Below are positions 1 to 50,289 of a DNA stretch of 64,000 bases, in pieces. Below the pieces are notes generated by a model. That model saw only the letters and a program-made list of their open reading frames with translations, made no database searches and was not told the origin of the DNA. A program made the position numbers and the translations under genes. The stretch comes from an uncultured Roseovarius sp. (GTDB lineage: Bacteria; Pseudomonadota; Alphaproteobacteria; Rhodobacterales; Rhodobacteraceae). The stretch lies in contig OX638333.1 in the NCBI GenBank assembly GCA_951812895.1, forward strand, positions 48,366 through 112,365. Direction: 5' to 3'. The first letter of the stretch is position 1, and every line of letters begins with the position of its first letter.

Positions 1-292
1 GGTAAATCGCAATTGCCCAGACCTGATAACCGAGATTGGACGCTTCCATGCACGTCCCAGTGCGAACTGAAAATCGCTTGCGGCATTCCTTCTCACGGCA
101 ACGGTAGGGCATGGTCTTGTGTGCCGCCCCGGACAGCACGCTGGTCGATCCGCAATGTGGACAGTGAGGACCATCGGCCCAGCGTTCCTCGGTAAACCAC
201 TTCTCGGCGGCTTCGTCGGTGGGGAATATCTTGAACAGCTTTACGAGGCTGATACCTTCACGATAGTGCTTACCGGGTGCTTTCTGTGCCAT
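1..292 (-). CDS. IS1595-family transposase, N-terminal part (cut by window edge)
   Basis: The N-terminal 97 residues are identical to the complete transposase at 47842-48819. The zinc-ribbon with two Cys pairs (residues 44/47 and 65/70) is visible. The catalytic DDNK region would lie left of the window, so intactness cannot be judged. Confidence 0.85.
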   Translation of the reverse strand, partial: MAQKAPGKHYREGISLVKLFKIFPTDEAAEKWFTEERWADGPHCPHCGSTSVLSGAAHKTMPYRCREKECRKRFSVRTGTCMEASNLGYQVWAIAIY

Positions 293-378
293 GTGTATCT
301 CCCTTGATCTTGGGCACTATTGAATCACCTATGGTCTAGGGCGTCAAGCCCTTTTGGGCACTATCGTATATAATTCCC
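1..378 (-). mobile_element. IS1595-family transposon, partial (right end)
   Basis: Left-hand copy of the right end of the transposon seen complete at 46317-48905. It includes the first 97 codons of the transposase, its promoter region and the terminal inverted repeat that ends in CCC at 378. The rest lies to the left of the window. Confidence 0.85.
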
Positions 379-1073
379 TTCGATTGACTGATCAATTGCT
401 GTGTTTAATAGACTCTTCTTGCGTGTCATGTGGTTGATTCCTTTCGTCCACTAGGTTGCGCAAGTGGGCGGCTGCTCTCCAAAGTAGGCCGTCCACTTCT
501 TCCCGATATCGGGGAAGCACTTTGTCACCGACTTGCTCCTTGGTAAGTGCAGTGATCCATTTCAAATTATCCAATAGGTCCAACGTTACACCCGAAATCT
601 CGCGGCGAGATTCTTGCTTTTCCTTACTCCAAGGGTGATGGAGCACCTCACCTGTAGACGTGTCCGTGTAGGTCATTTGAGGATCGGGAGGTTCAAACCC
701 TTCCTTGGTATAGCCACCCGTTTCGTTGCGGACGTAACCCGGTTTTGCACTGCCGATGTTTGCGGTGTTCTGGGTGTAGGTCGTACCGTTGCGGGTGACC
801 TTTCGCTTCGGCTTATCTTCCAACGGTTGGAAGATATTATCTGTGTTTGGAACACAGATAGCTTTTCGCACATCACCCACAAATTTGTTTCCAACACGAC
901 ACTGGCGGGCGATTTCCCGGTCTGACCACTGCGCCCACTCCGGGTCATTCAATAGGCGGCTAACAGCCTGTCTCTTGTCCTCATTGGTTCGGCGCGCACC
1001 ATGTGCGGCATTGGCTCCGACAGAATAAAGTACAGCATTCCGCAACGAGCCTTGCCGAACATCTGCATTGATC
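379..1073. repeat. parB 3' segment, copy 1 of 3
   Basis: This 695-bp segment is identical to 13530-14224 and 48906-49600. It begins at the first base outside the IS terminal repeat and ends at a GATC inside the integrase/ParB junction. It contains the 3' part of the ParB-like gene plus the first codons of the gene that follows it. Confidence 0.9.
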
Positions 1074-1546
1074 ATCGCGCGCGTGATCTGGTCGATTGGT
1101 ACATCAAGCCATTCACCGTCCTTACCGGCATGATTTTGCAGGGTGGACAGGTAGTCGTAGACGGTGTTGGCCGTTTTCTCTTTGGTGCGTGGGTCAACAC
1201 GTTCGGTTGTGTGCCTGAGAAATGCCTGTCTAAGGCTGATCTCCTTGGCTTGGGTAACAACAGGGGCAGGCAAGGCGTGCGTCGCATCAGCGACCCGCTC
1301 AGACATCGTGTCTGCCGCCTGCGCGGCTGAGTGCAGGTTCATGGCAGGCCATTTTCCAAGTGTTTTGGATTTTGTTTTGCCATGCGCAAATTTGACCAGA
1401 CGCCAAGTTTTGGTTTTTGTGCCGACGTCTAAATACAGGTTTGGGAAGACGCCTTTGCGCTGGTCAGCATAACGGTTTGTGCCGGACTTCGAAAACGGCA
1501 GTTTGTCGATACTGCCTTCGGTGAACTTGATACGTTGGGTTGCCAT
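392..1546 (-). pseudogene. Chimeric gene: integrase N-terminus fused in frame to ParB-like C-terminus (copy 1)
   Basis: Residues 1 to about 158 are the arm-binding (DUF4102-type) and core-binding domains of a P4-like tyrosine recombinase. From about residue 159 the sequence is identical to the C-terminal part of the ParB-like protein at 13543-14436. The recombinase catalytic domain (R, HxxR, Y) is absent, so the product cannot cut DNA as an integrase. Start chosen at 1546 because GGAGG lies 5 nt upstream; an ATG at 1558 is the alternative. The open frame across the junction means a DNA-binding fusion protein could still be made. An identical copy is at 48919-50073. Confidence 0.85.
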
Positions 1547-1675
1547 GGAGGCCTCCATTTTTGCAATTATTTTGCAATTTTCGTATCAACCACCACCGGG
1601 TCTGCTCAACCGAAGTGTCTGTATTTATTAGGTAAAAGCAACATAAGCCACCGTCAGCAACCCAATTTTCCCGTA

Positions 1676-1967: not shown

Positions 1968-3557
1968 ATGAACTTCATCGCGTTAGAATCAGAACAGAAG
2001 CTACGCGGTGGATACTACACGCCTGCCGACCTCGCTAATTTCTTAACCCGATGGATAGCTCCGAGCGCCGGAACCCGCGTGCTTGAACCAAGCTGCGGAG
2101 ATGGCGCATTTTTCCCAACGCTTGATGGATCTGACGCAACAGTTACGGCATTCGAACTATCGCCAGAAGAAGCTGCAAAGGCTTCGGCGCGTGGTCTGCC
2201 GGATTGTACCGTTCACAATCGAGATTTCTTAAGTTGGGCGCTGGCAGCGGAACGCGGCCAGTTCGATGCGGTCATCGGCAACCCACCGTTTGTCAAGTAC
2301 CAGTATCTCCCGGCGGACTTCCAAGCCAACGCTGAACGTGTGTTTGCGCGTCTCGGCTGCAAATTCACGAAACACACTAATGCATGGGTTCCTTTCATTC
2401 TCGCGTCGATGGACCTGCTGCGCCCCGGTGGGCGGCTAGCGATGGTGGTTCCGTCCGAGATCGTGCACGTTATGCACGCGCAATCCTTGCGAACCTATCT
2501 CGGACAGCAATGTCGCCGCATAGTGATCGTAGACCCTCAAGAAATCTGGTTCGAAGGCACCTTGCAGGGCGCGGTCCTGCTGATGGCCGAGAAGAAGGCT
2601 GCGCCTGATGTCCACGGCGAAGGGCTAGGCATTCACCGCGTAGCCGGTCGCGACTTCCTACGCGAAGACCCAGAAGCAGTTTTCAACACACCCCGAGCGA
2701 TCAACGGAAAGACTGTTCAAGGCAAGTGGACACGCGCACTGGTGCCCACCGCGACTCTATCCACCCTCGAAGCCTTAGAAGAAGATTCCAGATTCTGCCG
2801 CTTCGACGATGCCGCTAAAGTGGACGTGGGCATAGTCACGGGTGCCAACAAGTTTTTCCTCGTCACAGACGACGTTGTGCGACAGAACGGACTGGAAAAG
2901 TGGGCGCATCCAATGTTTGGGCGCAGCGACCATTGCCCCGGAGTGATCTATGATAACGCGCAGCACGCCCGCAATGCGGCTACAGGCAAGCCTACGAACT
3001 TCCTGTGGCTCGACAGTTCGGTTATGGATAGTGCCAAAGGTCGCGCTTACATCGCTTCGGGCGAACACGAAAAGCTCCACGAGCGATATAAATGCCGTAT
3101 CCGAAAGCCGTGGTACACGGTGCCTTCGGTGCACGCTACCGAGGTTGGAATGCTCAAGCGCAGCCACAACACGCCCCGCCTAATTCATAATCGTGTCGGG
3201 GCCTACACAACCGATACCGCCTATCGCATTCGTGCCCTTCGCGGTACAGCGGATGCTTTGGTTTATGGCTTCTACAACAGCCTGACCGCCCTCAGCGCGG
3301 AACTGGAAGGGCGTCACTATGGCGGTGGTGTTTTAGAGCTGGTGCCCAGCGAAATTGAGAAGCTGCTGTTACCTGCACCCGAAGGCATCTCCCCAAATGT
3401 TGAGAAATTGGACCGTATGGTGCGCGAAGATTCTGTGGCGGACACGCTGGAAGTGCAATCAGAAGATGTGCTTGGTGCTCTGACTAAGGCTGAACAGATG
3501 GACCTGCTTGCCGCTTGGGCTACTCTACGCGACCGCCGCCACCGAATTCCTTCTTAG
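1968..3557 (+). CDS. N6-adenine DNA methyltransferase, XamI/Eco57I-like
   Basis: A 529-residue gamma-class adenine methyltransferase. GGYYTP (residues 14-19) is followed by SAM motif I around VLEPSCGDGAFF (38-49) and the catalytic NPPF at 105-108; the C-terminal half would carry the target-recognition domain. Length and layout match methylases of XamI-type restriction systems. It lies just inside the att site, converges on an endonuclease remnant and shares its stop (TTAG overlap) with it. It is therefore an orphan methylase left from a restriction-modification pair, probably cargo rather than a phage core gene. Recognition sequence cannot be read from the sequence. Confidence 0.85.
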   Translation: MNFIALESEQKLRGGYYTPADLANFLTRWIAPSAGTRVLEPSCGDGAFFPTLDGSDATVTAFELSPEEAAKASARGLPDCTVHNRDFLSWALAAERGQFDAVIGNPPFVKYQYLPADFQANAERVFARLGCKFTKHTNAWVPFILASMDLLRPGGRLAMVVPSEIVHVMHAQSLRTYLGQQCRRIVIVDPQEIWFEGTLQGAVLLMAEKKAAPDVHGEGLGIHRVAGRDFLREDPEAVFNTPRAINGKTVQGKWTRALVPTATLSTLEALEEDSRFCRFDDAAKVDVGIVTGANKFFLVTDDVVRQNGLEKWAHPMFGRSDHCPGVIYDNAQHARNAATGKPTNFLWLDSSVMDSAKGRAYIASGEHEKLHERYKCRIRKPWYTVPSVHATEVGMLKRSHNTPRLIHNRVGAYTTDTAYRIRALRGTADALVYGFYNSLTALSAELEGRHYGGGVLELVPSEIEKLLLPAPEGISPNVEKLDRMVREDSVADTLEVQSEDVLGALTKAEQMDLLAAWATLRDRRHRIPS

Positions 3558-13079: not shown

Positions 13080-13580
13080 TTAGGCGGCTTCTGGATCGAG
13101 ATACTGTTGAGCCTCTTCAACGATCAGGCGTGGGTGATCCTTCCAGATGGGAGCAAGGATCAATTCCATTGCTCGAAGTGCCCGGATGTGTTTTTCCAAG
13201 CCCTTTCTTTGAACAATTAAATCCCGAATGATGTCGGAGAATTCCTCTTTCGTCATGTGCGCGATCTGCTTGAAAAGTGTTTCGCCATCGCTCGACTTGA
13301 CGGGATAAATCACCTCTGCATCTGGCTGCGCCAAATCAGGGTGCAGCGGCGCAAGGGCCATCAACTGCGACCGACTTACAGCCCGCGTCCTCTCCCGTAT
13401 GCGATCCCTCAATTTTGCATTGCCCAATTCAAGCAATACTTCGCTCATTTCAGTGCCTAGGCTGGTGCGAACTCGCATCTCAACATCGGTATAACCAAAC
13501 CCTTCATCTCCCTTCTTGGTGACAAGAGTTTCGATTGACTGATCAATTGCTGTGTTTAATAGACTCTTCTTGCGTGTCAT
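13080..13580 (-). CDS. ParB-associated protein of unknown function
   Basis: 166 residues, charged and helical, rich in arginine around residues 55-75 (KLRDRIRERTRAVSRSQ). Its first 38 nt overlap the end of the ParB-like gene, so the two are probably translationally coupled and may act together. A copy of its first 17 codons, cut by the IS end, is present beside each chimera. This is the gene into which the IS1595 element originally inserted. Confidence 0.65.
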   Translation of the reverse strand: MTRKKSLLNTAIDQSIETLVTKKGDEGFGYTDVEMRVRTSLGTEMSEVLLELGNAKLRDRIRERTRAVSRSQLMALAPLHPDLAQPDAEVIYPVKSSDGETLFKQIAHMTKEEFSDIIRDLIVQRKGLEKHIRALRAMELILAPIWKDHPRLIVEEAQQYLDPEAA

Positions 13581-14224
13581 GTGGTTGATTCCTTTCGTCC
13601 ACTAGGTTGCGCAAGTGGGCGGCTGCTCTCCAAAGTAGGCCGTCCACTTCTTCCCGATATCGGGGAAGCACTTTGTCACCGACTTGCTCCTTGGTAAGTG
13701 CAGTGATCCATTTCAAATTATCCAATAGGTCCAACGTTACACCCGAAATCTCGCGGCGAGATTCTTGCTTTTCCTTACTCCAAGGGTGATGGAGCACCTC
13801 ACCTGTAGACGTGTCCGTGTAGGTCATTTGAGGATCGGGAGGTTCAAACCCTTCCTTGGTATAGCCACCCGTTTCGTTGCGGACGTAACCCGGTTTTGCA
13901 CTGCCGATGTTTGCGGTGTTCTGGGTGTAGGTCGTACCGTTGCGGGTGACCTTTCGCTTCGGCTTATCTTCCAACGGTTGGAAGATATTATCTGTGTTTG
14001 GAACACAGATAGCTTTTCGCACATCACCCACAAATTTGTTTCCAACACGACACTGGCGGGCGATTTCCCGGTCTGACCACTGCGCCCACTCCGGGTCATT
14101 CAATAGGCGGCTAACAGCCTGTCTCTTGTCCTCATTGGTTCGGCGCGCACCATGTGCGGCATTGGCTCCGACAGAATAAAGTACAGCATTCCGCAACGAG
14201 CCTTGCCGAACATCTGCATTGATC
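13530..14224. repeat. parB 3' segment, copy 2 of 3 (intact context)
   Basis: Same 695 bp as 379-1073 and 48906-49600. Here the segment is embedded in an uninterrupted parB gene and the start of its neighbour, so this is the ancestral arrangement from which the other two copies derive. Confidence 0.9.
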
Positions 14225-14436
14225 TCTAGCAGTCCAGCACCTTCAGCTCCAACTACACGGTGAAAGCCATCAGCCAACCAATAGTTTGAGCCATCAAAGA
14301 AAACGGTAACCGGCGGAAACTCATCACCTTCAGACATTGCCAAAGCGTATTCTTCTGCGACGGTCACATTAGTGCCCACACGGGGTTGAGTTCCCCCATC
14401 GCGCCGGATTTTTGATATGTCGAGATAGGTCGTCAT
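13543..14436 (-). CDS. ParB-like nuclease-domain / DNA-binding protein
   Basis: 298 residues. The N-terminal ~75 residues are a ParB/Srx-type domain (LDISKIRRDGGTQPRVG, then YWLADGFHRVVGA). A helix-turn-helix region follows (LLNDPEWAQWSDREIARQC) with a long charged C-terminus. Such orphan ParB-like proteins act as DNA-binding regulators or in partition; no ParA is present. ATG at 14436 is preferred over TTG at 14445 because AGGGA sits about 10 nt upstream. It lies downstream of a ribbon-helix-helix gene and is the donor of the C-terminal half of the integrase chimera. Confidence 0.75.
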   Translation of the reverse strand: MTTYLDISKIRRDGGTQPRVGTNVTVAEEYALAMSEGDEFPPVTVFFDGSNYWLADGFHRVVGAEGAGLLEINADVRQGSLRNAVLYSVGANAAHGARRTNEDKRQAVSRLLNDPEWAQWSDREIARQCRVGNKFVGDVRKAICVPNTDNIFQPLEDKPKRKVTRNGTTYTQNTANIGSAKPGYVRNETGGYTKEGFEPPDPQMTYTDTSTGEVLHHPWSKEKQESRREISGVTLDLLDNLKWITALTKEQVGDKVLPRYREEVDGLLWRAAAHLRNLVDERNQPHDTQEESIKHSN

Positions 14437-14448
14437 TAACTGCAATCC

Positions 14449-38421: not shown

Positions 38422-38670
38422 ATGCACCTTGCGCCTCAGAAACTCCACGCAACCAGTGACCAAATCGCAGCGCTTTTGCGCCACGCCAGAAACACAAGCG
38501 AAGGCTCACACCCGACATTCGGAAACCACGTTGCTGACGTGCTTGATTGCCTCGTTGCTGTGATCTGGAGCGATGACGAGGAAGACAAAGCCTCTGCCGC
38601 AGAAGACCTTGTGGACGCAGCAAGTGCCCTGCGTGACCGTGCTGATATCGAAATGCAGGAGGCCGCGTAA
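38422..38670 (+). CDS. First gene of rightward early operon, hypothetical
   Basis: 82 residues from MHLAPQKLHATSDQIAALLR with GGGAGA upstream. Acidic helical C-terminus (WSDDEEDKASAAEDLVDAAS). Stop and next start overlap as TAATG. Unknown early protein. Confidence 0.65.
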   Translation: MHLAPQKLHATSDQIAALLRHARNTSEGSHPTFGNHVADVLDCLVAVIWSDDEEDKASAAEDLVDAASALRDRADIEMQEAA

Positions 38671-39398
38671 TGTCCAAGTTTGACGTTCTCAAAAGATTTA
38701 CTGGCGAAGTTCTTTTCACGGCTGAGTTGGACTGTGACGACGATACACCAAGTTCCATAAGGCTAGGCCTTGCCGTTAAGTGGGGTGTTAAGAACAGAGC
38801 GAACCTCAACGGAGCGAACCTCGACGGAGCGAGCCTCTACAGAGCGAACCTCAACGGAGCGAACCTCGACGGAGCGAACCTCAACGGAGCGAACCTCGAC
38901 GGAGCGAACCTCAACGGAGCGAACCTCGACGGAGCGAACCTCAACGGAGCGAACCTCGACGGAGCGAACCTCAACGGAGCGAGCCTCTACAGAGCGAACC
39001 TCGACGGAGCGAGCCTCTACAGAGCGAACCTCAACGGAGCGAGCCTCTACAGAGCGAACCTCGACGGAGCGAGCCTCTACAGAGCGAACCTCAACGGAGC
39101 GAACCTCGACGGAGCGAGCCTCTACAGAGCGAGCCTCTACAGAGCGAGCGGAATCAACGAATACATCAAATGCATTCAGATAGATCAGTACCCGATCACC
39201 TACACCTCAGAGGTGATGCAGATCGGATGCCAAAGACATTTGATCGCGGAATGGCGTGGCTTTGACGATGAACGCATTGCGGGAATGGATGGCAAAAAAG
39301 CCCTGCGGTTCTGGCGCAAGTACAAAGATTGGATATTTCAAACGATTGATCTTTGCCCCGCGACACCCACGAAAAAAAACGAAGCGGACGCAGCATGA
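38670..39398 (+). CDS. Pentapeptide-repeat protein
   Basis: 242 residues. From about residue 44 there are some 23 consecutive pentapeptides of type A(N/S)L-x-x ([15 protein letters not shown]), which fold as a right-handed quadrilateral beta helix. Some such proteins mimic DNA and protect gyrase. N-terminal 40 and C-terminal 80 residues are non-repetitive ([20 protein letters not shown]-like). Encoded by near-identical 15-bp units, so copy number is likely to vary. Confidence 0.85.
38798..39150 (+). repeat. 15-bp tandem repeats in pentapeptide gene
   Basis: Units such as GGAGCGAACCTCAAC, GGAGCGAACCTCGAC and AGAGCGAGCCTCTAC repeat about 23 times with very few changes, suggesting recent expansion. 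Confidence 0.9.
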
Positions 39399-42586: not shown

Positions 42587-43759
42587 ATGACCAAAGAGCG
42601 AATTGAAGAACTAACCCCTGAGCAAGAGAAATATCTCCCGGTCTTTCGCGAGGAGTGGCTTCGAATTGGTCTGTCCACCAAGAACGTGGATAAAGACGCC
42701 TCAACTCACGCGGTTAAGCGGCTATACCAAGCAGGCGGGCTTGATGAGCCGCTGGTAATGCACTTCGACAGTCCGATGCAGTGCATTCTGGCAATTCATG
42801 TAATGCGCAGCCTTGGCGAAATTTCTGAGGCCAACCTCAGGGACAACCTCGGGGCCAACCTCGGGGCCAACCTCTGGGACAACCTCTGGGACAACCTCTG
42901 GGACAACCTCTGGGACAACCTCGGGGCCAACCTCTGGGACAACCTCAGGGACAACCTCTGGGACAACTTCGGGGACAACCTCAGGGCCAACCTCGGGGCC
43001 AACCTCTGGGCCAACCTCTGGGACAACCTCTGGGACAACCTCTGGGCCAACCTCAGGGACAACCTCAGGGCCAACCTCTGGGACAACCTCGGGGACAGGG
43101 ATTTGTATGTTCCCACGTACTTCTGGGGCAACTTAGATGCCTACTGGATGGCATGGGCAGAGTTCGCGGAAAAGATTGGTGTTCCAATTGATAAAAAGGA
43201 ACACTTTCACGCCTACATCGAATTTTCGAAGACCTCAGGCGTCAGTTATTTTTATCCGGGATTCGCGTTTGTCTCAGATAGACCAGACTTCATCGGCAAG
43301 GACGACCTGACCAGACTCCACTGTGAAACCGGGCCAGCGCTTTCGTTCCGCGACGGATATTCTGTTCACGCATGGCATGGGGTGAATGTTCCGGGCCATT
43401 GGATTGAAAACCCGCAGGAAGTCGATCCGGCTGAAATCCTGAAATCCGAAAATGTTGAACAGCGGGCGGCGGGCGCGCAGATAATCGGGTGGCCTCGAAT
43501 GGCCGAAAAGCTGGACCGCAAGATTATCGAAGGAGACCCGGAAAGTGACGTTGGCGCTCTTGTTGAGTTCACGCTGCCGGGCCTGCCCGATCCCGGGCGG
43601 TTCCTCATGGCGAAATGCCCCAGAAACGGGATCATCTGCGAAGGTGTTCCTCGTGTGTCCGACATAGACGATCAACCAATAAGCACAGCGATTGCGGCGC
43701 AAGCATGGCGGGACTGCCTGCCGCAGGCTGAATACATTCATCCCGCCATTCGCACATAG
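42587..43759 (+). CDS. Tetrapeptide-repeat protein with DUF6745-like domain
   Basis: 390 residues. Residues 84-171 are about 22 copies of L-x-(D/A)-N (LWDN, LGAN, LRDN), a four-residue period. The rest resembles DUF6745 proteins: RLHCETGPALSFRDGYSVHA, WHGVNVPGHWIENP, then RAAGAQIIGWPRMAE. Function unknown. In the same operon as the pentapeptide protein, but the repeat period and sequence differ. Confidence 0.7.
   Translation: MTKERIEELTPEQEKYLPVFREEWLRIGLSTKNVDKDASTHAVKRLYQAGGLDEPLVMHFDSPMQCILAIHVMRSLGEISEANLRDNLGANLGANLWDNLWDNLWDNLWDNLGANLWDNLRDNLWDNFGDNLRANLGANLWANLWDNLWDNLWANLRDNLRANLWDNLGDRDLYVPTYFWGNLDAYWMAWAEFAEKIGVPIDKKEHFHAYIEFSKTSGVSYFYPGFAFVSDRPDFIGKDDLTRLHCETGPALSFRDGYSVHAWHGVNVPGHWIENPQEVDPAEILKSENVEQRAAGAQIIGWPRMAEKLDRKIIEGDPESDVGALVEFTLPGLPDPGRFLMAKCPRNGIICEGVPRVSDIDDQPISTAIAAQAWRDCLPQAEYIHPAIRT
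42836..43099 (+). repeat. 12-bp tandem repeats
   Basis: About 22 units such as CTCTGGGACAAC, CTCGGGGCCAAC and CTCAGGGACAAC, near-perfect at DNA level. Prone to slippage; changes are multiples of 12, so frame is kept. Confidence 0.9.
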
Positions 43760-46316: not shown

Positions 46317-46350
46317 GGGAATTATATGAATTATATATACGATAGTGCCC
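46317..46350 (+). repeat. IS terminal inverted repeat, left
   Basis: Begins GGGAATTATAT and ends ACGATAGTGCCC; a duplicated GAATTATATA-like stretch interrupts it relative to the right repeat. Confidence 0.7.
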
Positions 46351-46357
46351 AGATCTC

Positions 46358-46528
46358 TCAAGTTTCTTCGTCTTCAGGTTCTTGTCGGGTTGCACCGCCT
46401 TTCATGACTGCCTTTATCAACCTCTCCGGTTTTACCGGTACACTTATGTCCTTGTTCATATCGGCTTTTGTTGGCTGGTAACTCCGGTCCATGACCTTGT
46501 TATAGTAGTCAGACTTCTGTTTGGTCAT
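46358..46528 (-). CDS. 56-residue passenger protein of the transposon
   Basis: Starts MTKQKSDYYNKVMDRSYQPT and continues KADMNKDISVPVKPERLIKA, then an acidic end. It overlaps the endonuclease stop by 20 nt and stops 8 bp from the left terminal repeat. Basic with no clear fold; not a recognisable controller (C) protein. Conservation of its tight position suggests a role in transposition or in the restriction system. Confidence 0.6.
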   Translation of the reverse strand: MTKQKSDYYNKVMDRSYQPTKADMNKDISVPVKPERLIKAVMKGGATRQEPEDEET

Positions 46529-47207
46529 CGCTTTCTCCAATGCATTCCTGCGTGATCCCGATTGCCAAGACGGGACAACCGCCATTGCGTCCTGCGTCCA
46601 ATCTGTAAAGCAATTTGCCCATCCATGTTGTTGATGCTCCAAACTTCTTATACACGTATTCGCTGCCTTGGGTTCCATCCTTGTTCAAAACCTTCCCAAG
46701 ACTCCGAAAGAACTCATTGTCCAGCGAGGAACCGCGTGTCAGTATAACACCAACGTCGATTGCGCCAGCATCATAGAAGGCTGAAAACGCATACAGGTCT
46801 CTATCATAAGTCTGGTCTTTGCTATTCCACTCGAAGTCAAGTGCGACTTTCCCGGAAACAAAATCAATCCTGTGACCATCTAGAAAACCTTTTTTGACGT
46901 ATTTGTGAAGAATATTTCCAATTTGCTTCGCATGTTCCAACCGGACCAGAAGATCAGCGGAAATGCGGGTTTCTATCCAGTCGGGCAACGGGAATAGCGT
47001 ATCCACATATTGGGCGATTGGCCCCTTGCTGCCGCCCGGTCTCCTTATCATCTCCGTTGTGATCTCAAACGTTTCCAAAGCATCTGTCACATGTGAGAAC
47101 TGATCAGGAAAACTGTTGGCCAGAATGGACGCTGCGTTCCTATAACTGTGAATTTCAAACTTCTGCCTGACGTTTTTCGAGAACAAATGTCTCTCGCCTT
47201 CTGACAT
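46509..47207 (-). CDS. Restriction endonuclease, BglII/BstYI-like
   Basis: 232 residues. HSYRNAASILANSFPDQFSH at the start, then a PD-(D/E)xK-type core with D115 in GHRIDFVSG and D124-F-E126-W-N128-S-K130, close to the variant E-x-Q/N active site of BglII. Also FPLPDWIETRISADLLVRLE and GASTTWMGKLLYRLDAGRNG, characteristic of this family. Cuts a palindromic site, probably GATC-centred if like BglII or BstYI. Lies 2 nt from the methyltransferase. Full length with no frameshift, so probably active. Confidence 0.8.
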   Translation of the reverse strand: MSEGERHLFSKNVRQKFEIHSYRNAASILANSFPDQFSHVTDALETFEITTEMIRRPGGSKGPIAQYVDTLFPLPDWIETRISADLLVRLEHAKQIGNILHKYVKKGFLDGHRIDFVSGKVALDFEWNSKDQTYDRDLYAFSAFYDAGAIDVGVILTRGSSLDNEFFRSLGKVLNKDGTQGSEYVYKKFGASTTWMGKLLYRLDAGRNGGCPVLAIGITQECIGESDDQTEV

Positions 47208-47209
47208 GC

Positions 47210-47845
47210 CTATTCCGCCGCAACTGACGAATTGTATTTATACGTGTCCCATGTCGGCTTATAGTCATCGCCCGCCTGGTTGCCCCAGACCGTCCAGTTT
47301 TCACGGCACCCGCGCCCGAACAATTCCAGGTATGGTCCCCAGCTGCAACTTTCGATGATATCATACTGTTCATCCGGTTTACGGGAATGCTCCCGCTTGC
47401 GCGTCCCGAACAGATTGACCTGTCGCCGCCCGGGTTGAAGTGTGCGCGCGTTTTTTCCACGTATCCCGAACAACAGGACTTCGGTGACGTTTCGGAAGTA
47501 AAACCCAACACCCCGCCCATCAGAGCCACCATCCTTGCGGACCTTGTGCCAGATGATGTTTGACTTGTAAGCAAAGCCCCACTTGGTCATGACCTGTAAT
47601 CCCTCAGGGAGCAAAGCATTTGGAACCCAAAGGTAACAATGCGCCCGATCTTCGACAAAATCTGAAACGGGAAGAGTGCATATGTCTTCAAGCGTCATTG
47701 TCGGATATCTGGCAAGACGTTTATGTTCAGGGGCCATTTTTCCTGTCCGGTTGGCAAAGCGCCAAGGTGGATCGGCCATGATTGTTGAAAACTTTTCAGA
47801 CCCGAGAAATTGAGAAAGATCATTCGCGACGCTTGAATCACTCAT
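47210..47845 (-). CDS. MT-A70-family adenine methyltransferase (modification partner)
   Basis: 211 residues. Catalytic DPPW at 25-28 (STIMADPPWRF), followed by CYLWVPNALLPEGLQVMTKW, KSNIIWHKVRKDGG and a C-terminal EQYDIIESCSWGPYLELFGR. MT-A70 enzymes make N6-methyladenine. Start overlaps the transposase stop as ATGA, so translation is coupled to the transposase. It would protect the host from the adjacent endonuclease. Confidence 0.85.
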   Translation of the reverse strand: MSDSSVANDLSQFLGSEKFSTIMADPPWRFANRTGKMAPEHKRLARYPTMTLEDICTLPVSDFVEDRAHCYLWVPNALLPEGLQVMTKWGFAYKSNIIWHKVRKDGGSDGRGVGFYFRNVTEVLLFGIRGKNARTLQPGRRQVNLFGTRKREHSRKPDEQYDIIESCSWGPYLELFGRGCRENWTVWGNQAGDDYKPTWDTYKYNSSVAAE

Positions 47846-48819
47846 GACCGCGCTCCGCTTGCCAAACCGTTGTCTGCAATCAAATCAACGTAGCGAAGGC
47901 GCTTGCCCTCCATGCCAGTAACCACGCCTGACATTTGGTCGATGGTGTTTTGCGGACGGACATTGTGACGGCCTGAGAACTCATTCACATAACGGTTCAG
48001 GTGCTTGGGGCTCATTTTGTGGAACGTGCCCTTGTGAGCGCGTTTGAGCGGTGCCCAGAAGCTTTCCAGACCGTTGATGTGAGCTTGTTCCCGAACATAC
48101 TCACCAACGGAATGGCGAACTGCCTCGTGCGTCCTGTTGATCCCCTTATAAGCGCTGGCATCATCTGTGTAGACGGCCGCGCACTCGGTGGTGTGGTCAA
48201 TGACAAAGCCTTGCAGCGTCTTCGACGTGGTGTCCCGTACGACCTTGGCAATAACCTGATTGGTTTCCCGATCCTTCACGCCAGCGACGATGGCTTTGCC
48301 AACGCCGCCGCGCCCGGCATTCAACTTCTTGCCCTTGTGCTTATTCTTTTCGAGTCCGCCGATGTAGGTTTCGTCGGCTTCCACCGGGCCACCAAAGGGC
48401 AGTGCAACACCATCATCCTCAAGCGCTTTGCGCACCCGGTGCGCCAAATGCCAAGCGGCTTTCTGGGTAATCTCCAGATCGCGATGCAACTTCATAGACG
48501 AAACACCCTTGAGGCTGGTGGTCATGAGGTAAATCGCAATTGCCCAGACCTGATAACCGAGATTGGACGCTTCCATGCACGTCCCAGTGCGAACTGAAAA
48601 TCGCTTGCGGCATTCCTTCTCACGGCAACGGTAGGGCATGGTCTTGTGTGCCGCCCCGGACAGCACGCTGGTCGATCCGCAATGTGGACAGTGAGGACCA
48701 TCGGCCCAGCGTTCCTCGGTAAACCACTTCTCGGCGGCTTCGTCGGTGGGGAATATCTTGAACAGCTTTACGAGGCTGATACCTTCACGATAGTGCTTAC
48801 CGGGTGCTTTCTGTGCCAT
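47842..48819 (-). CDS. IS1595-family transposase (ISXO2-like, DDNK)
   Basis: 325 residues. Zinc ribbon with C44, C47, C65 and C70, a helical region, then the RNase H-like core: D149 in VEADETYIGG, D219/D220 in AAVYTDDASAY, N249 in HINGLESFW and a nearby Lys (KRAHKG). This DDNK layout is typical of the IS1595/ISXO2 group. Complete and in frame. First gene of the passenger operon, with GGGAG before the start. Confidence 0.92.
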   Translation of the reverse strand: MAQKAPGKHYREGISLVKLFKIFPTDEAAEKWFTEERWADGPHCPHCGSTSVLSGAAHKTMPYRCREKECRKRFSVRTGTCMEASNLGYQVWAIAIYLMTTSLKGVSSMKLHRDLEITQKAAWHLAHRVRKALEDDGVALPFGGPVEADETYIGGLEKNKHKGKKLNAGRGGVGKAIVAGVKDRETNQVIAKVVRDTTSKTLQGFVIDHTTECAAVYTDDASAYKGINRTHEAVRHSVGEYVREQAHINGLESFWAPLKRAHKGTFHKMSPKHLNRYVNEFSGRHNVRPQNTIDQMSGVVTGMEGKRLRYVDLIADNGLASGARS

Positions 48820-48837
48820 GTGTATCTCCCTTGATCT

Positions 48838-48905
48838 TGGGCACTATTGAATCACCTATGGTCTAGGGCGTCAAGCCCTTTTGGGCACTATCGTATATAA
48901 TTCCC
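48838..48905 (-). promoter_or_regulatory. Right IS end: terminal repeat and transposon promoter
   Basis: Reading leftward, the repeat GGGAATTATATACGATAGTGCCC (48905-48883) is followed by TTGACG, a 17-bp spacer and TTCAAT, a weak promoter for the operon. A second ATAGTGCCCAA lies inside the repeat by about 40 bp, probably a subterminal transposase-binding site; it overlaps the region just after the -10 and could give self-repression. Confidence 0.55.
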
Positions 48906-49600
48906 TTCGATTGACTGATCAATTGCTGTGTTTAATAGACTCTTCTTGCGTGTCATGTGGTTGATTCCTTTCGTCCACTAGGTTGCGCAAGTGGGCGGCT
49001 GCTCTCCAAAGTAGGCCGTCCACTTCTTCCCGATATCGGGGAAGCACTTTGTCACCGACTTGCTCCTTGGTAAGTGCAGTGATCCATTTCAAATTATCCA
49101 ATAGGTCCAACGTTACACCCGAAATCTCGCGGCGAGATTCTTGCTTTTCCTTACTCCAAGGGTGATGGAGCACCTCACCTGTAGACGTGTCCGTGTAGGT
49201 CATTTGAGGATCGGGAGGTTCAAACCCTTCCTTGGTATAGCCACCCGTTTCGTTGCGGACGTAACCCGGTTTTGCACTGCCGATGTTTGCGGTGTTCTGG
49301 GTGTAGGTCGTACCGTTGCGGGTGACCTTTCGCTTCGGCTTATCTTCCAACGGTTGGAAGATATTATCTGTGTTTGGAACACAGATAGCTTTTCGCACAT
49401 CACCCACAAATTTGTTTCCAACACGACACTGGCGGGCGATTTCCCGGTCTGACCACTGCGCCCACTCCGGGTCATTCAATAGGCGGCTAACAGCCTGTCT
49501 CTTGTCCTCATTGGTTCGGCGCGCACCATGTGCGGCATTGGCTCCGACAGAATAAAGTACAGCATTCCGCAACGAGCCTTGCCGAACATCTGCATTGATC
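48906..49600. repeat. parB 3' segment, copy 3 of 3
   Basis: Same 695 bp as 379-1073 and 13530-14224. Starts at the first base outside the IS and ends at the integrase junction. Confidence 0.9.
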
Positions 49601-50073
49601 ATCGCGCGCGTGATCTGGTCGATTGGTACATCAAGCCATTCACCGTCCTTACCGGCATGATTTTGCAGGGTGGACAGGTAGTCGTAGACGGTGTTGGCCG
49701 TTTTCTCTTTGGTGCGTGGGTCAACACGTTCGGTTGTGTGCCTGAGAAATGCCTGTCTAAGGCTGATCTCCTTGGCTTGGGTAACAACAGGGGCAGGCAA
49801 GGCGTGCGTCGCATCAGCGACCCGCTCAGACATCGTGTCTGCCGCCTGCGCGGCTGAGTGCAGGTTCATGGCAGGCCATTTTCCAAGTGTTTTGGATTTT
49901 GTTTTGCCATGCGCAAATTTGACCAGACGCCAAGTTTTGGTTTTTGTGCCGACGTCTAAATACAGGTTTGGGAAGACGCCTTTGCGCTGGTCAGCATAAC
50001 GGTTTGTGCCGGACTTCGAAAACGGCAGTTTGTCGATACTGCCTTCGGTGAACTTGATACGTTGGGTTGCCAT
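48919..50073 (-). pseudogene. Chimeric integrase/ParB gene (copy 2), the only integrase of E1
   Basis: Identical to 392-1546. Integrase residues 1-158 include the DUF4102 arm-binding domain (FTEGSIDKLPFSKSGTNRYA) and the start of the core-binding domain (LRQAFLRHTTERVDPRTKEK). ParB sequence follows from NADVRQGSLRNAVLY. Catalytic domain lost. Its 5' end faces the tRNA fragment 130 bp away, the normal place for a P4-type integrase, so E1 originally carried a working one here. Confidence 0.85.
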
Positions 50074-50202
50074 GGAGGCCTCCATTTTTGCAATTATTTT
50101 GCAATTTTCGTATCAACCACCACCGGGTCTGCTCAACCGAAGTGTCTGTATTTATTAGGTAAAAGCAACATAAGCCACCGTCAGCAACCCAATTTTCCCG
50201 TA

Positions 50203-50247
50203 TTTGTAATCAGTAGGTCCGCGGTTCGAGTCCGTGTGGGGGCACCA
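50203..50247 (+). other. Attachment site: tRNA-Thr(UGU) 3' fragment, boundary of E1 and E2
   Basis: Same 45 bp as 1676-1720. To its left is the integrase chimera of E1, to its right the integrase of E2 (stop codon 75 bp away). It is therefore both the right end of E1 and the left end of E2. Confidence 0.85.
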
Positions 50248-50289
50248 GATCAAAAATAAGATACTGAAATAATTGCATTAATTTCGATT

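Follow-up and report, generated by a model that had tools for sequence, protein, structure and literature searches.

The 64,000-nucleotide stretch analysed here (the window; positions 48,366 to 112,365 of contig OX638333.1, assembly GCA_951812895.1, from an uncultured Roseovarius sp.) contains, at window positions 46317–48905, an IS1595-family element with four leftward open reading frames (ORFs), which encode a transposase, an MT-A70 methylase, a BglII-type endonuclease, and a 56-aa protein. The methylase start overlaps the transposase stop by 4 nt (ATGA), 2 nt separate methylase and endonuclease, and the final ORF, whose longest frame is 106 aa, yields the 56-aa protein from an internal ATG. 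ORF analysis and Pfam bear out this four-gene anatomy, including the ATGA junction and the 20-nt overlap of the last two genes, which an initial annotation had proposed from the sequence alone. The transposase carries DDE_Tnp_IS1595 and Zn_ribbon_IS1595 domains and is named IS1595 by NCBIfam (175.9 bits, against a cut-off of 75); among the matches listed, which cover 60 of 95 plasmid records, its identity to the ISfinder-style named elements ISPepr2 and ISRhtr1 is 32% and 30%, respectively. The methylase matches the MT-A70 profile over positions 1–172 of 172, and PADLOC assigns it to the type II methyltransferases. The endonuclease matches the Endonuc-BglII profile over its full length (1–163 of 163), which agrees, at the level of a sequence profile, with the earlier description of this protein as BglII-like. 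PADLOC returned no match for the endonuclease, and Pfam returned none for the small protein.

The three larger proteins retain their key residues. Among 41 aligned transposase rows (40 of them relatives), D149, D219, and E252 are present in all 41, K259 in 38, and N249 in 37. The DPPW motif of the methylase is invariant in the 78–79 of 81 aligned rows that cover it, as are D115, E126, and N128 of the endonuclease in 82 of 82. Methylase and endonuclease genes whose catalytic residues are conserved thus lie side by side at this locus, the arrangement of a type II restriction-modification (RM) pair. In 11 pairwise comparisons of the transposase, methylase, and endonuclease with relatives, nonsynonymous divergence (dN) was 0.114–0.252; synonymous divergence (dS) was past the range of the method in ten, and the sole computable ratio was 0.148 (transposase against that of L136, an element described below). 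By these comparisons the proteins change far more slowly than silent sites. Because the residues are conserved and dN is low, selection has kept the genes, which does not imply present-day activity.

Copies, borders, and mobility of the unit

The host genome, a single contig of 4,544,618 bases, contains six full copies of the unit with identical 2530-nt cores. Four of these, the window copy included, have common flanks, and the other two, L005 and L006, lie elsewhere. An 8-bp target duplication is a feature of the IS1595 family. L005 and L006 each form a 2578-bp element with exact 24-nt ends (GGGAATTATATACGATAGTGCCCA) and a perfect 8-bp duplication, ATTCATTT at L005 and CAATTTTG at L006 (read on one strand). 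The borders of the element are certain, because in both copies the terminal repeats match at 24 of 24 positions and the duplications at 8 of 8. At the L006 site (C1:2021561), 10 of 11 same-genus genomes have both flanks on one contig with no room for the element, the gap between them measuring 92–319 nt in nine and 1408 nt in G340; the eleventh, G436, gave no left-flank match in this comparison. When the flanks are joined, the L005 site falls inside a 148-aa ORF and the L006 site between two larger ORFs, with an 85-aa ORF spanning it. Two copies elsewhere show exact ends and duplications, and relatives lack the element at one of these sites, so the RM unit transposes as a whole; the claim of the initial annotation that a complete RM-type pair moves inside an IS1595 unit is upheld by these two copies.

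Several observations weigh against reading the feature as an autonomous transposon with a type II RM pair. The window copy is 2589 bp long and has no 8-bp duplication (TTTCTAAA on the left versus TTCGATTG on the right), and the repeat at its left end measures 35 nt rather than 24 nt. With no duplication and an altered left repeat, this copy alone would leave mobility doubtful; it may be recombinant and less mobile. Its terminal repeats and borders, as first described, are therefore confirmed through L005 and L006 but are not of canonical form in the window itself. At least 80% of the unit is held by none of the 18 plasmid records and none of the five phage records that match it. The endonuclease has no sequence match at E ≤ 1 among solved structures (PDB chains). 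Finally, when 84,980 species genomes were scanned for relatives of the endonuclease, 154 were found, and in the best 80 of 154 loci, which we kept, a recognisable IS1595 transposase adjoins the pair only once (L043), in decayed form.

One could suppose that an IS1595 element merely lies beside a phage-borne RM pair and so resembles one unit: the window copy sits in a prophage without a duplication, and plasmids and viral contigs carry the RM pair without IS1595. We give this essentially no credence, as it is ruled out by the L005 and L006 insertions, in which the whole unit recurs at two unrelated chromosomal loci with exact ends and 8/8 duplications, one of them at a site empty in relatives. 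Terminal repeats arising by chance are likewise ruled out by these two duplication-bounded insertions, and by the bases beside the duplications of 42 elements (sampled as described below), which match at 2.05 of 8 positions on average and at four at most. The feature is very probably an autonomous, cargo-carrying IS1595-family transposon comprising a transposase, a predicted type II RM pair, a small protein, 24-nt ends, and 8-bp duplications (Table 1). This transposon has moved recently, carries a complete RM gene pair, and is one among several carriers of RM-type cargo in its clade. The TTCGATTG stretch that recurs without the element elsewhere in the window may have been an insertion site.

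Table 1. Positions of the transposon's features and of related sequence within the window
Feature	Position	Strand	Details
Right terminal inverted repeat	48882..48905	-	24 nt, TGGGCACTATCGTATATAATTCCC on + strand; transposase-proximal; same in all six genome copies
Left terminal inverted repeat	46317..46351	-	35 nt against 24, 11 extra nt (repeated GAATTATATAT); clean 24-nt form in L005 and L006
IS1595-family transposase, 325 aa	47842..48819	-	PF12762 1.1e-36; PF12760 2.3e-8; NF033547 9.8e-52
MT-A70 DNA adenine methyltransferase, 211 aa	47210..47845	-	PF05063 5.9e-29; PADLOC MTase_II 6.9e-88
BglII/BstYI-type restriction endonuclease, 232 aa	46509..47207	-	PF09195 5.4e-38
56-aa protein	46358..46528	-	Overlaps endonuclease by 20 nt
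Imperfect second copy (88%) of inner part of right repeat	48837..48852	-	44 nt inside right repeat
TTCGATTG adjoining right end	48906..48913	.	Also at 13530-13537 without element, just downstream of prophage parB-like gene
Right end of another full copy	1..378	-	Identical to 48528-48905; copy begins upstream of window

Cargo of related IS1595 elements

We searched for related transposases in overlapping samples of genomes, with the genome of origin included, and obtained matches in 37 of 295 genomes of the family (E ≤ 1e-40), 12 of 390 of the order (E ≤ 1e-60), and 16 of 385 of the class (E ≤ 1e-70). From the matches outside the genome of origin we took the best 20 of 63 for the family, all 11 for the order, two of which were already in the sample, and 31 of 36 for the class, again with overlap between samples. 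Ends were sought at 71 loci; 66 had been chosen regardless of repeats, and five weak loci (L122, L124, L126, L132, and L134) were added after their repeats were known, which favours the count. We accepted as elements those with repeats matching at 17 or more of 24 positions together with an 8/8 duplication. By this measure 42 of the 71 loci qualify (39 of 66 without the five), or 41 distinct elements with L005 and L006 counted once, at lengths of 1706–5285 bp; the 29 loci without accepted ends are left out of the counts below. The duplications of the 42 elements are 81% A+T, versus 39.5% in the 200 nt to their left. Twelve other loci (ten of L121–L135, L119, and L043) had an earlier scan only and stand outside the 71. 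One of the twelve, L130, has repeats matching at 21 of 22 positions, with TTTTTTTT duplicated, and may represent a genuine element from a different subgroup.

No insertion sequence (IS) without cargo was found among the 71 loci. The first scan for ends, which began 200 nt past the transposase, was blind to such bare elements; a dedicated rescan covered this region and gave only three low-scoring pairs (14/24). A cargo-less homologue with the same ends, which the initial annotation had named as evidence that would overturn its claim, did not come to light among these loci. One homologue, L136, has 24-nt ends identical to those of the window element and a 70% identical transposase, lies elsewhere, holds other content, and showed no match to any RM query used.

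DNA-methylase or RM-type cargo is present in 14 of the 41 distinct elements, in varied combinations. MT-A70 and BglII-type genes occur together in the window unit and in L150, and an N6/N4 methylase accompanies a BglII-type endonuclease (1.7e-32) in L232. L237 pairs a C5 methylase with a GIY-YIG protein, L243 an N6 methylase with a specificity protein, and L247 encodes a fused HSDR_N-N6 methylase-specificity protein. Six further elements (L102, L219, L222, L231, L145, and L146) encode methylase-HNH fusions, and L144 encodes a methylase-T5orf172 fusion, as does L142 by similarity to L144 alone, its methylase being frameshifted. The methylase-nuclease fusions, L243, and L247 are RM-like by domain and are not proven RM systems. 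In 8 of the 14 (L005, L150, L219, L102, L231, L232, L243, and L237) an ATGA or TGATG junction links the transposase stop with the first gene of the cargo; the cargo is on the same strand but uncoupled in L222 and L247, and the methylase is on the opposite strand in L142, L144, L145, and L146. In L219 and L231 the coupled gene encodes a 141-aa protein ahead of the methylase. Similar-looking proteins of 133–141 aa lie directly behind the transposase in L219, L231, and L223, twice ahead of a methylase-HNH gene; that of L219, the only one of the three scanned, has no Pfam match.

These couplings bear on the possibility that the methylase acts on its own account, controlling transposition through methylation of the element or of its target, with the endonuclease secondary. 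Transposase and methylase form a directly overlapping pair in the window unit, and in six of the eight coupled elements the coupled gene is a methylase. Nonetheless, of the 13 RM-type elements whose methylase was scanned with Pfam, 12 have in addition a partner endonuclease or else a fused domain of the HNH, T5orf172, or HSDR_N type (L243 scored none), and D115, E126, and N128 of the endonuclease do not vary among the 82 aligned rows; we judge such a role improbable.

L150, from genome G201 of the same family, is a second four-gene unit of the same kind. It spans 2584 bp, has 25-nt ends (24/25 matching) and the duplication TTTCATTT, and encodes a transposase 50% identical to that of the window element, an ATGA-coupled MT-A70 methylase (71%), a BglII-type endonuclease (28.6%; Pfam 1.3e-29), and a 55-aa ORF. 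With this second duplication-bounded unit, and with RM-type cargo in 14 of 41 relatives, the suggestion that such an element is rare as a kind is not supported. In the methylase tree, L150 and the decayed L043 fall in a starred set of three (97), apart from the window methylase; the third row of that set, which has no IS1595 label, is probably L046, the next nearest row. The row nearest to the window methylase is L026, which is not from a transposon. Topology tests of the methylase, which bear on whether IS1595 took up this pair once, did not reject a grouping of the three transposon rows (p-AU 0.47) and were borderline for the window methylase with L150 alone (0.057).

The other elements carry different genes. 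Ten (L151–L155, L248–L251, and L254) have a cargo protein of 313–383 aa at the transposase end, mostly overlapping the transposase, to which Pfam assigned P63C in six, RhuM in two, and no match in two; L154 also encodes a DUF3800 protein. The remaining 17 of 41 hold other or unassigned cargo; the minority of their ORFs that were scanned include those for a solitary GIY-YIG protein (L245) and for an EamA transporter (L224).

The small protein is not tied to the RM genes in its distribution. A profile built from five seeds found related small ORFs in 12 of 36 non-seed elements (E ≤ 0.1, weakest 0.086), beside varied cargo; this search covered only the part behind the transposase, and the six seed elements match by construction. 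A role as an RM component of antitoxin or controller type is disfavoured, since related ORFs occur beside other cargo, and from these matches, the weakest of which may be due to chance, the small protein is more readily taken for a putative component of the transposon itself than for one of the RM system.

A quick transposase tree of the 41 elements places all 14 of the RM type, together with 13 others, in a single clade of 27 rows (starred, 98), and all 12 elements with related small ORFs lie in the same clade; the ten elements of the P63C/RhuM group form a separate, neighbouring clade (starred, 99). The RM label changes at least ten times on this tree, five of the changes being forced by starred branches, and its clustering is not significant overall (69 of 500 shuffles as low). 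The pattern fits repeated gain, loss, or swapping of cargo. It also suits an explanation in which RM genes are neutral passengers, captured by chance by a cargo-tolerant element with no advantage to element or host, as does the range of other cargo (P63C- or RhuM-type proteins, the EamA transporter, the lone GIY-YIG protein, and unknowns), with 27 of 41 elements lacking a recognised methylase. RM-type cargo of different classes in 14 of 41 is hard to see as chance, though no background rate was measured, and the proteins change slowly relative to silent sites; on balance we consider neutral carriage unlikely, if a serious alternative. The best reading of the sequences is that a cargo-carrying IS1595 lineage repeatedly picks up RM systems. 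More tentatively, and at slightly short of an even chance, this lineage may be a general RM carrier throughout the Alphaproteobacteria, one that swaps RM classes behind its transposase, often through ATGA or TGATG junctions, has its own small protein in common, and employs RM cargo as an addiction module, by which elements of IS size persist.

A second IS1595 transposon occurs in the same genome (L102–L105; starting at C1:4278001, 1391001, 1018001, and 440001) as four copies of 4545 bp that are ~99.9% identical. Its cargo is an ATGA-coupled methylase-HNH fusion and ORFs that by eye are IS630-like. L102 has the perfect duplication AAACATTT. The flanks of the other copies are swapped in a ring, in that the left flank of L103 equals the right of L104, the left of L104 the right of L105, and the left of L105 the right of L103, a pattern that recombination between copies would be expected to leave.

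Proposed mechanism and relation to known systems

In the mechanism we consider most likely, the transposase would act on the 24-nt ends, insert the unit into AT-rich targets, and duplicate 8 bp, and the adenine methylase and BglII-type endonuclease would form a type II RM pair. Because the genes run in the order transposase, methylase, endonuclease, modification before restriction would be favoured, and a newly entered copy could mark host DNA ahead of cutting. The genes would be co-expressed from the element's promoter, the two enzymes would have cognate specificity, and both would be active, giving the element a working RM system. Post-segregational killing, as in other systems, could then stabilise the element; the selfish or addictive effect put forward in the initial annotation is plausible by analogy with another RM system, in the available portion of that report (PMC3031569).

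That RM systems spread among distant bacteria is known, but their vehicle is often unclear. An IS-sized element with a complete RM pair, identical copies, and target duplications is a direct and testable vehicle, and this group of elements may help to explain the spread of RM defences. It also brings to the bench the question of whether post-segregational killing helps a simple transposon persist, and the clade supplies natural comparisons, with relatives that differ in RM type and L136, whose ends are the same and in which no RM genes are seen. For one RM system to be present in a genome as six identical copies, four of them in a prophage array, is an unusual gene dosage.

IS copies with passenger genes, known as transporter ISs (tIS), are established, and Siguier et al. 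2009 is cited for them in the available text of two papers (PMC3129680, PMC5704250). The window element resembles tIS as outlined there in having an IS1595-type transposase and one pair of IS ends, inside which genes dispensable for transposition move along. According to the accessible part of PMC5704250, tISCpe8 and MTnSag1/tISSag10 are mobilizable elements, and the title of a work in its reference list describes tISCpe8 as a lincomycin resistance element. Unlike these, the window element has a type II RM pair as its cargo, and its whole clade is rich in RM-type cargo. The literature searched yielded no account of an IS1595 unit that encloses an RM pair, although Siguier et al. 2009 may already list RM cargo; nor is RM cargo in an IS1595 element described in the available portions of PMC7371123, PMC11092175, PMC3942029, PMC9296519, PMC5446998, PMC6211672, PMC3281130, PMC8370563, and PMC4046053. 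RM genes flanked by IS repeats have been mentioned as possible composite transposons, and the PaeR7I RM system moves with an IS, its endonuclease activity selecting survivors that retain RM (PMC3031569, available portion). In that case a chromosomal IS1 or IS5 is linked to movement of plasmid-borne RM genes (PMC3031569), whereas the RM genes of the window lie inside one self-contained element.

Tn7-like transposons are usually far larger, with several transposition genes. RM is the most common and widespread immune cargo of these unrelated transposons (947 transposons in Table 1 of PMC8649781, as far as its available text goes), so that RM cargo is common to them and the window element. The two enzymes are themselves the same as those of MT-A70 and BglII/BstYI-type pairs on plasmids and chromosomes, 79 of 80 such loci having no adjoining IS1595 transposase. 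IS1 and IS1595 are reportedly related, to judge from the title of Siguier et al. 2009. For this reason the over-representation of the pair 'IS1 - Site specific DNA methyltransferase' in a large survey (37.2% of IS1 couples; PMC9208149) may already have hinted at the association seen here. That survey counted neighbouring genes, and its available text does not describe ends, duplications, or an RM pair (PMC9208149).

The RM pair away from IS1595 and the prophage context

The methylase is also present in 79 of the best 80 endonuclease loci; at L048 the stretch is cut by a contig end. The methylase comes first in 43, the endonuclease first in 30, six have the genes on opposite strands, and in one the methylase is cut by a contig end. 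At least 1.7 kb of upstream sequence was covered for 36 of the 43 methylase-first loci, and the scan would miss very divergent transposases or those beyond a contig end. The transposase of L043 is 37% identical, is broken by a stop, and meets the methylase at a GTGA junction; terminal repeats were looked for at this locus and none were found. Seven viral contigs have the RM pair without an IS1595 transposase, and Comamonas resistens provides a plasmid example of the MT-A70 and BglII/BstYI-type pair. In another viral contig (L262:4791-7159) a 5'-truncated IS1595 transposase precedes genes for an N6/N4 methylase and for an endonuclease of the Eco47II type, with no ends established.

Mosaic prophages arranged in tandem surround the window copy. 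The array occupies window positions 1721–50247 and, in the genome, extends from approximately C1:4487671 to 98612 (on the assumption of a circular contig), and four of the six copies of the RM transposon sit in successive prophage units. The repeat of the array ends at a 46–47 nt core (window 50202–50248) that resembles the 3' end of a tRNA. All 11 same-genus genomes contain this core, at 98–100% in eight and 87% in three; ARAGORN called no tRNA in the window. In a 388-aa ORF present twice (window 392–1558 and 48919–50085), an N-terminus of integrase type (Arm-DNA-bind_3) is joined to the C-terminal portion of a ParB-like protein; the ORF shares 695 identical bp with the gene for the ParB-like prophage protein at 13543–14445. 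Because this ORF adjoins the transposon end, the fusion may stem from recombination. Two other prophage ORFs (window 38670–39398 and 42587–43759) contain strongly repetitive pentapeptide-like runs, and a 529-aa protein of the same prophage unit (window 1968–3557) has PHROGs matches to phage DNA methyltransferases (best named match, 5.1e-11).

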